A stretch of DNA of 64,000 nt, from positions 272,021-336,020 of the forward strand of contig NZ_KB907123.1 of assembly GCF_000381825.1 (NCBI RefSeq). The letters run 5' to 3'. Shown here piece by piece: positions 22,448 through 28,949 of this stretch. The position numbers and the translations under genes were made by a program. The notes under the pieces were generated by a model. That model saw only the letters and a list, made by a program, of their open reading frames with translations. It was not told where the DNA came from and ran no database searches. Origin of the DNA: Thioalkalivibrio sp. ALJT. GTDB taxonomy: Bacteria; Pseudomonadota; Gammaproteobacteria; Ectothiorhodospirales; Ectothiorhodospiraceae. Each line of letters begins with the position of its first letter. Position 1 is the stretch's first letter.

Positions 22448-23314
22448 ATGGTGAAGGACGTGCAGCGGATGGATCAGGCAGATTTGCTGGATCTGCAGCA
22501 GCGGGCAGCGCGCCAGGCTCGGGTGGCGGTGGGCTTTCGGGATACCGCGCGTTCCGGAGCGCTTACCCCGGAGCTACAGGTGATCCCGGCCGGAGAGTTC
22601 GAGCTGGGCTCGGATGCCTCGGAATATGGGCACCAGCCGCACGAGGCCCCGCGGCGGTTCGTGGCGCTGGAACGGCCCTTTGCGCTGGGACGCTACACCA
22701 TCACGCGCGAGGAATGGGAGGCGTTTCAGGCGGCCACCGGCTGGACGCCCTGGGACTGGCTGGTCTGGCCCAGTACCCCGCGTATGCCGATCTTCAACGT
22801 CAAGCCGGGCAGCATCCAGCAATATCTCGACTGGCTGAGCGAGGAGACCGGTAAGCGCTACCGCCTGCCCACCGAGGCGGAGTGGGAATACGCCTGCCGG
22901 GCCGGCACCCGCACGCCATTCGCCTTTGGCGAGGTGGTGGGCTGTCGCGACGTACACTTCAACTCCCTGTTTCCCTACGAGGAGCGGCGTCAGCGGCGCA
23001 AGTGGTATATCCCCGCCTGTTTCCCGCTTTCGCGTCCGCTGGATGTCGGCAGTTTCCAGCCTAACCTGTGGGGGCTGTATGACATGCACGGGAACGTGCA
23101 GGAGTTCACCTCCACGCCATGGCATGACAGCCATGCCAGCCTGCCGCGCGATGGCGTCTACCGTCGCGATCCGGACAACGAATGGGTGGTCGCCAAGGGC
23201 GGTTCCTGGTTCGATCCAGCGGTGAACACCCGCAGCGCTGCCCGGCGCCGCCGCAATATCGACGAGATGGATACCAACCTGGGCTTCCGCGTGCTGCGCG
23301 AGCTGGACGATTAA
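22448..23314 (+). CDS. SUMF1/formylglycine-generating-enzyme-like protein
   Basis: A 288-residue cytosolic protein of the SUMF1 fold: VIPAGEFELGSDASE at the start of the domain, RLPTEAEWEYACRAGT, GNVQEF and the C-terminal KGGSWFDPAVNTRSAARRRR...NLGFRVLRE. The two catalytic cysteines that true formylglycine-generating enzymes carry in the segment before the C-terminal NLGFR are absent, so sulfatase activation is unlikely. Related proteins act as substrate-binding or iron-dependent oxidase (EgtB/SenA-like) domains. The ATG at 22448 follows GGAGGTG; an ATG at 22469 is possible. It is monocistronic, with no sulfatase nearby. Confidence 0.8.
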   Translation: MVKDVQRMDQADLLDLQQRAARQARVAVGFRDTARSGALTPELQVIPAGEFELGSDASEYGHQPHEAPRRFVALERPFALGRYTITREEWEAFQAATGWTPWDWLVWPSTPRMPIFNVKPGSIQQYLDWLSEETGKRYRLPTEAEWEYACRAGTRTPFAFGEVVGCRDVHFNSLFPYEERRQRRKWYIPACFPLSRPLDVGSFQPNLWGLYDMHGNVQEFTSTPWHDSHASLPRDGVYRRDPDNEWVVAKGGSWFDPAVNTRSAARRRRNIDEMDTNLGFRVLRELDD

Positions 23315-23458
23315 TCGCTGGCGCCCTCGGCACGACGAGTTCGCTGCGCTCAACAGCATCCTACGGTTGGATTCATGCGCGCGGGCGCACTAAGTCTCGT
23401 GAGCTGAGCCATCCGTTTGCCGTTTGCCGGTTACCGTTAAGCGTTATATTCTGTATCC

Positions 23459-24007
23459 ATGATCAGAAGCTTTCGGTGTAGGGAAACCCGGGCGCTGTTC
23501 GAAACCGGAAGGAGTCGGCGTTGGTCCGGTATCCGAGCGATTGTGGAGCGCAAGTTGGTTCAGCTTCAAGCGGCGGAGACGCTGCAGGATTTGCGTTCGC
23601 CGCCGGGTAATCGGCTGGAGGTCCTGTCTGGAGATCGCGAGGGACAGCACAGCATTCGCATCAACGCCTTGGGAAACACTGATCAATGTACGCGCTCGCG
23701 TTGGTGCCCCCTGTTTTCCGAGACAAGGCGCGGCGCGTAGAGTCGTAGCATTCTACGGCCAAGCGGCGCAACGCAGGATCGGGGAACAGGGGGCACCAAC
23801 CCCGCAGAGGCTCGGCCGCTTTTGCGCGTGTACGGCGTTGCGGTTCCCTTGTGCAGAATGACTGCACGGCAGTCGCCGCGCCTTGTTCACACGCAAAAGC
23901 GACTCGAGCGCGAGTGCGTACATTGATCAGTGTTTCCCTGGTGGCGTATCTGTTTCCGGTGGACTGACGAAGGTCCCGAGGATGTGGAGATCGTCGATTA
24001 CCACTGA
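23459..24007 (+). pseudogene. higB: higB toxin gene split by a MITE-like element
   Basis: The 5' part (23459-23670) encodes a RelE-fold HigB toxin up to GQHSIRIN; the 3' part (23939-24007) resumes with WRICFRWTDEGPEDVEIVDYH and a stop, which is exactly the missing HigB C-terminus. The 268-bp insert between them is a repeat element. The reading frame shifts across the insert and the encoded chimera would run into element sequence, so the toxin is almost certainly inactive: the last beta-strands with conserved residues are lost. A TATATT -10-like box precedes the start at about 23446. The intact antitoxin gene follows 24 bp after the old stop. Confidence 0.9.
23671..23938. mobile_element. MITE-like element, subfamily B, inserted in higB
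   Basis: 268 bp with terminal inverted repeats: left GGGAAACACTGATCAATGTA, right its complement TACATTGATCAGTGTTTCCC, extending inward to CGCTCGCG. Inside are the two hairpin arms shared by the family: the GTTGGTGCCCCCTGTTTTCC / GGAACAGGGGGCACCAAC arm and the CGCTTTTGCG / CGCAAAAGCG arm, in inverted order relative to the copy at 27855. It carries no ORF of its own. A target duplication, if any, is at most 2 bp and is not clear. Confidence 0.88.
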
Positions 24008-24031
24008 AAGGTTTTGGAAGGAGGTTAAACC

Positions 24032-24331
24032 ATGAGCACAAGCGGTATGCGACCCATCCATCCAGGCGAGGTCCTGCGCGAGGAGTTTCTTGCCCCGCTT
24101 GGGCTCAGTGTGAACGCGCTTGCCGGGGCGTTGCATGTGCCGACGACGCGAATGAACGACATTGTGCGCGAGCGTCGTGGCATTTCGGCTGACACGGCCA
24201 TGAGGCTGGCGCGTTATTTCGGCACTTCCGAGCGTTTCTGGCTGAACCTGCAGGTTGAATACGAACTGAGGCGCGCCCAGATCGAACTCGCTGACCGCGT
24301 GCGCAGCGAGATCGAACCTCGCGCTGCGTGA
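24032..24331 (+). CDS. higA: HigA antitoxin, XRE/HigA family
   Basis: A 99-residue antitoxin with the HigA signature HPGEVLREEFLAPLGLSVNALA and helix-turn-helix LHVPTTRMNDIVRERRGISADTAMRLARYFGTSERFWLNLQ. It follows a strong GGAGG. Its toxin partner higB directly upstream is broken by a repeat element, so this is an orphan antitoxin. It may still repress its own promoter or neutralise related HigB toxins elsewhere in the genome. Confidence 0.93.
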   Translation: MSTSGMRPIHPGEVLREEFLAPLGLSVNALAGALHVPTTRMNDIVRERRGISADTAMRLARYFGTSERFWLNLQVEYELRRAQIELADRVRSEIEPRAA

Positions 24332-24362
24332 CGCGCGTTTTCGCCGCACCTTGCTGTTCTGG

Positions 24363-24617
24363 TCAGTAGTGGTAGCGGAGCTGCGCAATCAGCAGGGTCC
24401 CGTCGTCCACCTTGTAGACGATGCGGTGTTCGCTATCGATCCGTCGGGACCAGTAGCCGGCAAGGTTGTGCTTGAGGGGTTCGGGCTTCCCGATGCCCGT
24501 AAACGGGTCGCGCAGGATGGCCTTGATGAGCTCGTTCACGCGGCGAAGGGTTTTCTTGTCGTGTCGTTGCCAGTAGAGATAGTCCTCCCAGGCAAGTTCA
24601 GCAAAGAGTAGCCTCAC
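24363..24617 (-). CDS. yoeB: YoeB toxin (Txe family)
   Basis: An 84-residue ribosome-dependent mRNA interferase. It aligns end to end with E. coli YoeB: start MRLLFAELAWEDYLYWQ, middle DPFTGIGKPEPLKHNL, and the C-terminal ...AQLRYHY with the catalytic Glu-Arg-His set (GKPEPLK, SRRID, RYHY). The start is a GTG at 24617. It follows yefM by 19 bp and intrudes on a palindrome. Intact. Confidence 0.93.
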   Translation of the reverse strand: MRLLFAELAWEDYLYWQRHDKKTLRRVNELIKAILRDPFTGIGKPEPLKHNLAGYWSRRIDSEHRIVYKVDDGTLLIAQLRYHY

Positions 24618-24621
24618 TCCT

Positions 24622-24651
24622 CTAGGGGAACACTAATCAGTGTTCCCCTAG
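24622..24651. repeat. palindrome at the yefM/yoeB junction resembling fused MITE ends
   Basis: CTAGGGGAACACT and AGTGTTCCCCTAG form a 13-bp inverted repeat around a 4-nt centre. The arm GGGGAACACTGAT matches the outer end of the subfamily B elements (GGGGAAACACTGAT) apart from one base. It contains the yefM stop codon. It may be a tip-to-tip remnant of an element, or a plain hairpin that tunes toxin translation. Confidence 0.55.
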
Positions 24652-24891
24652 CCTCCGTTCCTTGCCTCCCCCTTGCTCCAGTTCGGCGACCGAGGCAAGC
24701 AGGCGCCGAGCATTCTCTGGTGCCCGAAGCAGGTAGGCCGTTTCCTGTAGCGCCTCAAAGTCTTCCAGTGACATCATGACCACGGAGGGGGCTTTGTTGC
24801 GGGTAATGATAATCGTGGAATGGTCTTCGCAGACCTGTTCCATCGTCTTGGCCAGATTGCTCCGCGCTGCGGTGTAGCTAATGGCGTCCAT
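24637..24891 (-). CDS. yefM: YefM antitoxin
   Basis: An 84-residue Phd/YefM antitoxin, MDAISYTAARSNLAKTMEQV followed by ITRNKAPSVVMMSLEDFEALQETAYLL, which matches E. coli YefM closely. It neutralises YoeB and represses the operon. The ATG at 24891 was chosen by alignment. The C-terminal GGGKERRLGEH ends within the palindrome between the two genes. Confidence 0.93.
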   Translation of the reverse strand: MDAISYTAARSNLAKTMEQVCEDHSTIIITRNKAPSVVMMSLEDFEALQETAYLLRAPENARRLLASVAELEQGGGKERRLGEH

Positions 24892-27692: not shown

Positions 27693-28309
27693 ATGCGCTT
27701 CCTGGTGGATGCACAGCTCCCGCCGGCCCTTGCGCGCTGGCTGGTTGACCAGGGTGTTGAGGCCGAGCATGTTGCAGATGTCGGGATGCTTGAGGCTTCA
27801 GACCGGGAGATCTGGGCGGAAGCACTCCGGACGCGGGCCGTCATCGTGACCCCGGGAGACGCTGATTTAATCGCACGTCCGCGCTCGAGTCGCTTTTGCG
27901 TGCGAACAAGGCGCGGTGACTGCCGTGCAGTCACTCTGCACAAGAGAACCGCAACGCCGTGCGTGCGCAAAAGCGGCCGAGCCCCTGCTTTCTATGGCTT
28001 GTCGGGTTGGTGCCCCTTGTTCCCCGATCCTGCGTTGCGCCGCTTGCGGGTAGAACCACTACCCGCTGCACGACGCGCCTGGTCTCGGAAAACAGGGGGC
28101 ACCAACGCGGACGTGCCATTAAGTCAGCGTCTCCCGAGGATGAGGATTTTGCTGTCTGGCGCTCCGCGGCTTCGGGGGCCTATCCAGCCGTCGTCTGGCT
28201 TCGAGTTGGCAATACTCGAAAGGCGGCCTTGCTCGAATGGTTCAAGCCGCTTTTACCTCGCGTGCTCCAGGCTTCGGAGCACGGTGAATCGCTGATCGAA
28301 GTCGACTGA
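27693..28309 (+). pseudogene. DUF5615 PIN-like nuclease toxin split by a MITE-like element
   Basis: The 5' part encodes MRFLVDAQLPPALARWLVDQ...AEALRTRAVIVT, the first half of a DUF5615 (COG4634) predicted nuclease. The 3' part resumes after the 280-bp element as DEDFAVWRSAASGAYPAVVW and ends GESLIEVD. In intact relatives a single residue links VIVT to DEDF, so the insertion separates the catalytic Asp residues. The frame after the left junction runs into element sequence. The toxin is therefore dead while the DUF433 gene upstream is whole. Confidence 0.9.
27855..28134. mobile_element. MITE-like element, subfamily A, inserted in DUF5615 gene
   Basis: 280 bp, ends GGAGACGCTGATTTAATCGC and its imperfect complement finishing CAGCGTCTCC. 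Arm 1 pairs 27883-27904 with 27961-27982 (CGCTTTTGCG with CGCAAAAGCG). Arm 2 pairs 28006-28026 with 28086-28106 (GTTGGTGCCCC with GGGGGCACCAAC), capped by a GCGGGTAG / CTACCCGC hairpin at about 28046-28067. The layout is therefore end, arm, arm, end, able to fold into a cloverleaf. No ORF. The junctions show no clear target duplication. Confidence 0.88.
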
Positions 28310-28645: not shown

Positions 28646-28949
28646 CCGGGGAAGCACTGATTCATGTACACACACGCGCTGGCACCCCGGGTGTTCCGAG
28701 ACCAGGCGCGGTGCGCAGCGGGTAGTGGTTCTACCGCGCAAGCGGCGCAAAGCAGGATTGGGGAACTTGGGGGGCAACCCCGCAACGTCCATCAACGCGG
28801 GGGCTCGGCCTCTGGTTGTGATCAAAAACGGGCGCGGGAACGGCGTTGCGGCTCCCTTGTGCAGAATGACTGCGCGGCGGTCACCGTGCCTTGTTCGCAC
28901 GCAAAAGCGACGCAGCAGCGAGCGTGTACATTGATCAGTGTTTCCCCGG
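28646..28949. mobile_element. MITE-like element, subfamily B
   Basis: About 304 bp, left end CCGGGGAAGCACTGATTCAT, right end ATTGATCAGTGTTTCCCCGG. It shares the family arms (GTTCCGAGACCAGGCGCGG region, GCGGGTAGTGGTTCTACCGC hairpin, CGCAAAAGCG near the right end) in the same order as the higB copy. It lies between the divergent small hypothetical gene and the gene at 28959, whose start codon is only 10 bp from its end. Confidence 0.82.

Follow-up and report, generated by a model that had tools for sequence, protein, structure and literature searches.

The window analysed here, a stretch of 64,000 nucleotides from a 2.66-Mb draft genome of Thioalkalivibrio sp. ALJT in 21 contigs, raises the question of whether a HigB-type toxin gene has been cut by a small mobile element while its antitoxin gene was left whole, and, if so, what the element is and whether such insertions recur. 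The locus consists of the following features, in toxin-first order.

23459-24007, plus strand: higB, interrupted after codon 70, with higA downstream
23459-23667, plus strand: higB 5′ part, HigB residues 1-69 and part of codon 70 (PF05015)
23668-23671, plus strand: left 4-bp flank, CTTG (CTAG at the equivalent place in Thioalkalivibrio sp. AKL19)
23672-23937, plus strand: inserted element of 266 bp, read as a MITE, with ends GGAAACACTGATCAATGTAC and complement and nested palindromes inside
23938-23941, plus strand: right 4-bp flank, CTGG
23942-24007, plus strand: higB 3′ part, WRICFRW...EIVDYH, stop codon at 24005-24007
24032-24331, plus strand: higA antitoxin gene, intact, 99 aa (TIGR02607)

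A profile search with the 5′ reading frame matched HigB (PF05015) over profile positions 12-69 of 91 with an E value of 5.3e-10, over the cut-off. Compared with five Thioalkalivibrio genomes, nucleotide identity was 87.0-98.1% for the 5′ part and 90.9-97.0% for the 66-bp 3′ part, and WRICFRW...EIVDYH resumes 3′ of the element, so that the two parts complete a HigB C-terminus across the insert, as the sequence-only reading had proposed. The downstream gene scored 110.1 bits with NCBIfam TIGR02607 (HigA, cut-off 47.7), is preceded by GGAAGGAGG, and encodes a protein 97% identical to that of AKL19 and 96% identical to that of T. versutus AL2, the nearest named relatives by HigA. That an element cuts higB and leaves HigA intact is thus borne out by the sequence, the reading frames, the repeats and both profiles. 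HigA had also been called an orphan, which agrees with our finding that the broken higB is the single PF05015 match in the 21-contig draft; within that draft, HigA looks like the orphan of its broken pair.

The insert is bounded by inverted arms of 30 nt (23671-23700 and 23909-23938) that a repeat search found to be 97% complementary. Comparison with other copies of the family placed the limits at 23672-23937, so the length first given, 268 bp, was right to within 2 bp and becomes 266 bp. Together with a 4-bp flank the insert lengthens the gene by 270 nt without shifting the frame, yet two in-frame stops lie inside it. The complete toxin frame is absent, and the interrupted frame encodes 93 aa, about 70 of them from HigB and the rest from the element, inside which the frame ends.

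Searching the genome of the window with the insert listed 58 matches, comprising 40 primary rows, a lower bound, and 18 reverse-palindrome or fragment rows. At least 240 of the 281 query bases were covered in 16 of the 40 primary rows, and at least ten rows held one inner module only, or nearly so. One such module of about 89 bp (query bases 160-248) stands without the rest of the element at several places in the genome, so that the MITE looks like a mosaic of repeat families. With higBA plus the insert as query, 22 of 30 genomes of the genus were matched, and each of 16 among these gave 12 or more matches. Because orthologous higB genes are uninterrupted and the insert matches at least 40 primary rows in its own genome, we regard the interruption as an insertion and not as chance. 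The earlier description of a small mobile element accords with the terminal repeats (GGAAACACTGATCAATGTAC and its complement, with variants, across the family), with the 4-bp flanks, and with an autonomous insertion sequence in congeners that has matching ends.

This insertion sequence is about 1.2 kb long, carries the ends GGAAACRCTGATCAATGG and GGAAACACTGATTTAT, and was found complete in four congeners (G005, G009, G011 and AKL19, which is G015) and cut by a contig end in a fifth (G006). The shared terminal inverted repeats read GGAAACACTGATCAATG in the MITE and GGAAACGCTGATCAATGG / GGAAACACTGATTTAT in two insertion sequence copies (L333 and L338), with a similar form in a third (L334). Its transposase belongs to the IS5 family (NF033581, with scores of 319.3 and 310.1 bits where the cut-off is 140; also PF01609 and PF05598). 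IS5 elements target the 4-bp sequence YTAR, and all four cleanly read copies had equal 4-bp flanks, CTAG in L333 and L338, GTAG in L341 and TAAG in L334. A DDE_Tnp_1 profile search across 16 genomes yielded 12 matches, spread over 8 of them; these transposase loci, two of which contain a MITE-family element, had been meant as a second control and served instead to find the insertion sequence. By its ends, the higB insert is thus a MITE of an IS5-family insertion sequence, and since MITE and insertion sequence share those ends, we infer that it was moved in trans by an IS5-family transposase.

To survey the flanks, 65 copy rows were extracted, representing 63 distinct places. The 4-bp flanks were equal on both sides in 18 of the 63 copies and unequal in 45; a YTAR tetramer bordered both ends of 19 copies, and one end or both of 48. 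One unequal pattern, CTAG/CTGG or CCAG/CTAG, was common to 12 of the 63 copies; it would be explained if very-short-patch repair had turned CTAGG into CCAGG, or if the flank had travelled with the element. Like IS5-family MITEs, the element is short, has no transposase gene in its 266 bp, shares its ends with an insertion sequence of the same genus, has 4-bp flanks and occurs in many copies. It differs from them in its interior of nested palindromes, with one module found free-standing, and in having equal flanks in only 18 of 63 copies.

Comparison with empty higB sites in close strains had been proposed as a check, and it showed the same locus without the element in four congeners, G005, G006, G013 and T. 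versutus AL2 (G029). The junction of the uninterrupted orthologues reads HSIRINAQWRICFRW in G005 and G013 and HSIRINARWRICFRW in AL2, with a close variant in the DNA of G006. G005, G013 and AL2 each have a complete HigB frame; in G006 the junction DNA is empty and PF05015 matches over profile positions 23-91. Among the matches listed, where a filled locus would rank at the top of the genus list, AKL19 was the sole other genome with the element, at the same higB position and in the same orientation. Its insert is one base longer and puts a stop codon at the left junction, and no related strain with a functional spliced or frameshifted HigB was seen. The pair resembles HigBA type II systems in its toxin-first order, its HigA-type antitoxin and the whole HigB of congeners, and departs from them in that the toxin is interrupted in the window genome and AKL19.

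Taken together, the repeat family, the ends and 4-bp flanks, the insertion sequence of congeners, the empty orthologous sites and the intact higA are best explained by the insertion of a MITE, moved by an IS5-family transposase, into higB, the toxin gene of a pair which congeners keep in place; we put the probability of this reading at about 0.9. What speaks against it is that the flanks of the window copy are unequal, that those of most copies are unequal as well, and that the empty sites (CCAG, CCGG, CCAA) are not YTAR. The insertion sequence is also absent from the matches listed for the window genome, where no pair of ends lay 1-2 kb apart and the one partial PF01609 match (contig C18, profile positions 153-200) is a transposase fragment.

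On the preferred reading, the MITE would have entered higB and left a 93-aa product that would be non-toxic, missing the C-terminal third with its VDYH end. Loss of toxicity is likely because that third is gone and the insert holds two in-frame stops. The VDYH end is common to the HigB proteins of AL2, G005 and G013 and to 6f8s_B, the closest solved chain (‘Putative Killer protein’, E 4.3e-38), which we take to be the GraT toxin; it is missing from the truncated product. In P. vulgaris HigB these last residues are reportedly catalytic. PMC7180214 describes conserved histidine and acidic or tyrosine residues as used by HigB, YoeB and YafQ, and PMC9098466 treats other HigB residues. The antitoxin gene would then persist, harmless without its toxin and with its own ribosome-binding site kept.

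A quite different explanation holds that the element is an RNA or regulatory structure useful to the host that now drives or insulates higA. The predicted RNA fold of 23668-23941 is very stable (-180.3 kcal/mol, z -13.3, shuffle mean -107.7) and could hinder read-through into higA. However, any palindromic element folds well, and a scan of 23300-24700 found 0 sigma-70-like promoters where 0.4 were expected by shuffling, the promoter and terminator scan giving no signal above chance. We consider this explanation very improbable.

In-frame insertion was considered as well, because 266 plus 4 is divisible by three and because the frame of a second interrupted gene in the window, DUF5615, runs through its element. 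It was rejected on the in-frame stops of the higB insert, the extra base and junction stop in AKL19 and the shifted frame in DUF5615. Rickettsia palindromic elements are described as in-frame insertions; the present family resembles them as palindromic elements within genes, but here the outcome is stops (higB) or a frameshift (DUF5615).

Since AKL19 and the window genome are filled at the same position, either two insertions struck one higB site or a single insertion was shared. The single event would require homologous recombination between lineages, or precise loss in AL2 and G006. Position and orientation are identical in the two genomes, and their inserts, which are 94% identical, form one clade with an intergenic G006 copy (L131) at a support of 100. 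The flanks (CTTG/CTGG in the window, CTAG/CTGG in AKL19) share CT where the four empty sites have CC, and the higBA region of the window is a mosaic, its higB 5′ part being 98.1% identical to the empty G006 and its higA only 84.7%. All of these observations would fit one event. Against it, AKL19 is close to the empty AL2 in all four segments tested, on both sides of the insert (97.7% in the upstream gene, 97.1% in the higB 5′ part, 95.5% in the 66-bp 3′ part and 97.7% in higA), whereas the window 3′ part is nearer to G013 and G005 (97.0%) than to AKL19 (90.9%).

L131 is equally close to the window and AKL19 inserts, and a tree of 61 copies joined the AKL19 insert to L131 and not to the window insert (support 98), although an AU test on ten copies rejected none of the three orders (0.075 with the two higB copies joined, 0.43 and 0.70 for the others). 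Between the window and AKL19 genes, the 5′ parts show 8 residue differences and about 18 silent changes, which indicates that most differences arose while higB was kept. This divergence as working genes, the G006-like 5′ part of the window and the empty state of AL2 despite its likeness to AKL19 favour two insertions. We therefore think that the AKL19 element probably reached the same position through a second insertion, a single insertion being the less probable history but a serious one.

The window contains further copies of the family next to or within toxin-antitoxin genes, along with a third element.

24363-24617, minus strand: yoeB toxin gene (PF06769, 134.3 bits; TIGR02116, 120.8 bits)
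24622-24651, plus strand: 30-bp palindrome read as a MITE-family relict, terminal repeats only, with 13-nt perfect arms and CTAG on both sides
24637-24891, minus strand: yefM antitoxin gene (PF02604, 90.1 bits), its last codons now within the relict, as judged by its end in L214
27468-27692, plus strand: DUF433 gene (PF04255, 96.4 bits)
27855-28134, minus strand: second element, with ends GGAGACGC (divergent subfamily), lying within a DUF5615 gene that begins at 27693
28650-28945, plus strand: third element, of 296 bp, flanked by CCGG at each end

The 30-bp palindrome is read as a relict because only the two ends are left, because G009 has a full element at the yefM/yoeB junction (L210), and because in G012 (L214) that junction is empty, with overlapping stop and start codons. 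DUF433 is presumably an antitoxin-like partner, DUF433 and DUF5615 forming what we take to be a toxin-antitoxin pair. The DUF5615 gene is whole in G010 and G006; in the window its insert adds 284 nt (280 plus 4), which puts the 3′ part of the gene in another frame (ORF 27693-28295), and PF18480 scores 49.0 bits on the interrupted frame against 83.8 bits on the uninterrupted G010 gene.

Across 16 genomes the family recurs in HigB genes. The element abuts or splits 4 of 28 PF05015 matches (26 of these 28 exceed the cut-off), namely those of the window, AKL19, AL2 (L209) and G012 (L208). In L209 (positions 1000-1760) a second HigB type is split at CTAG on both sides, with higA following. The G012 case is the C-terminal half of a third HigB type, a match below the cut-off, again followed by HigA. 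Beyond HigB, the element cuts a RelE-like toxin gene in G005 (L145; Pfam RelE 17.5 bits, cut-off 27), the HTH antitoxin gene beside it being whole, and five antitoxin/toxin junctions hold an element: L210 together with the window relict, L126/L285 (of which L005 has the Phd side only), L277, where the last antitoxin codons are cut off, L286, and L146, with a DUF4258 match below the cut-off. No element lay inside the matched domain in 60 sampled HigA and Phd loci (0/60).

We compared locus sets made up of all 28 HigB matches and the best 30 of 41 HigA, 64 ParE, 87 Phd and 145 GNAT matches, the last as control. An element was present in 7/28 HigB and 7/30 HigA loci (overlapping sets), in 6/30 ParE loci (one element being shared by L286 and L299, and fragments of 34-56 bp making up the hits in L288, L300, L199 and L321), in 3/30 Phd loci, in 2/30 GNAT loci and in 2/12 transposase loci. 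Within HigB genes, four hits compare with 0.16 expected at GNAT-locus density, a baseline of two elements (Poisson 2e-5, or 5e-4 without the window).

These counts raise the question of whether toxin-antitoxin loci attract the family, or selection favours insertions there, so that the family acts as a recurrent toxin silencer. The excess in HigB, the RelE-like and DUF5615 genes, the five junctions and the element-free domains of the 60 HigA and Phd loci would fit such a role. On the other side, Fisher tests on loci with an element gave p values of 0.07 for HigB against GNAT and 0.08 for HigB plus ParE against GNAT, the toxin and GNAT loci are unmatched for dispensability, and a non-toxin gene, an aldo/keto reductase, is split too. 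In a flank survey, 4 of 57 copies, two of them the window case and its AKL19 counterpart, had a hit to HigB, HigA, Phd or ParE no more than 600 bp away, as against 6 of 26 GNAT loci. This survey is weak either way: its queries came from four families only, which leaves the DUF5615, RelE-like and DUF4258 cases outside, some antisense frames were included, several GNAT hits may represent one orthologous locus, and 8 of 65 copy rows (same, orthologous or duplicate places) and 4 of 30 GNAT loci (too short) were omitted. It gave no excess over GNAT loci and does not support a general attraction to toxin-antitoxin genes; we hold the silencer role to be unlikely. The same doubt applies to the still wider proposal that an IS5-type MITE is a recurrent toxin switch-off in Thioalkalivibrio, which would settle time and again in toxin genes or at antitoxin/toxin junctions, would have hit the same higB codon twice independently, and would spare the bodies of antitoxin genes because cells survive only such insertions.

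As a single case, the window locus is ordinary toxin loss with a surviving antitoxin, a known type of gene loss; the same-site pair and the recurrence in toxin genes lift it slightly above that. Literature searches limited to open-licence papers showed neither this element nor any MITE in a toxin gene of Thioalkalivibrio. Since the same sites are found empty, filled and, at yefM/yoeB, as a relict in relatives, the rate and direction of toxin loss may become measurable. An insertion in a toxin gene should be viable and one in an antitoxin gene not, so the loci could be read as natural traps for a mobile element, and, if the switch-off proposal were true, as one-sided traps that record transposition.

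We claim no bias in position or orientation within genes from a codon score, after scanning ten flagged copies with Pfam on both sides. One of them splits a gene, with the aldo/keto reductase on both sides (L004), another five have one family to their left and a different one to their right (L019, L123, L125, L163 and L142), and the Pfam scan gave no assignment either way for L002, L016, L118 and L135. In several flagged copies the flank itself terminates the upstream frame, since a stop codon can fall within CTAG or TTAA.

The halves of the third higB of G012 seemingly lie on different contigs (L208, positions 1-100, and L200, positions 150-300), each beside CTAG and a similar AT-rich sequence that resembles the end of another insertion sequence.
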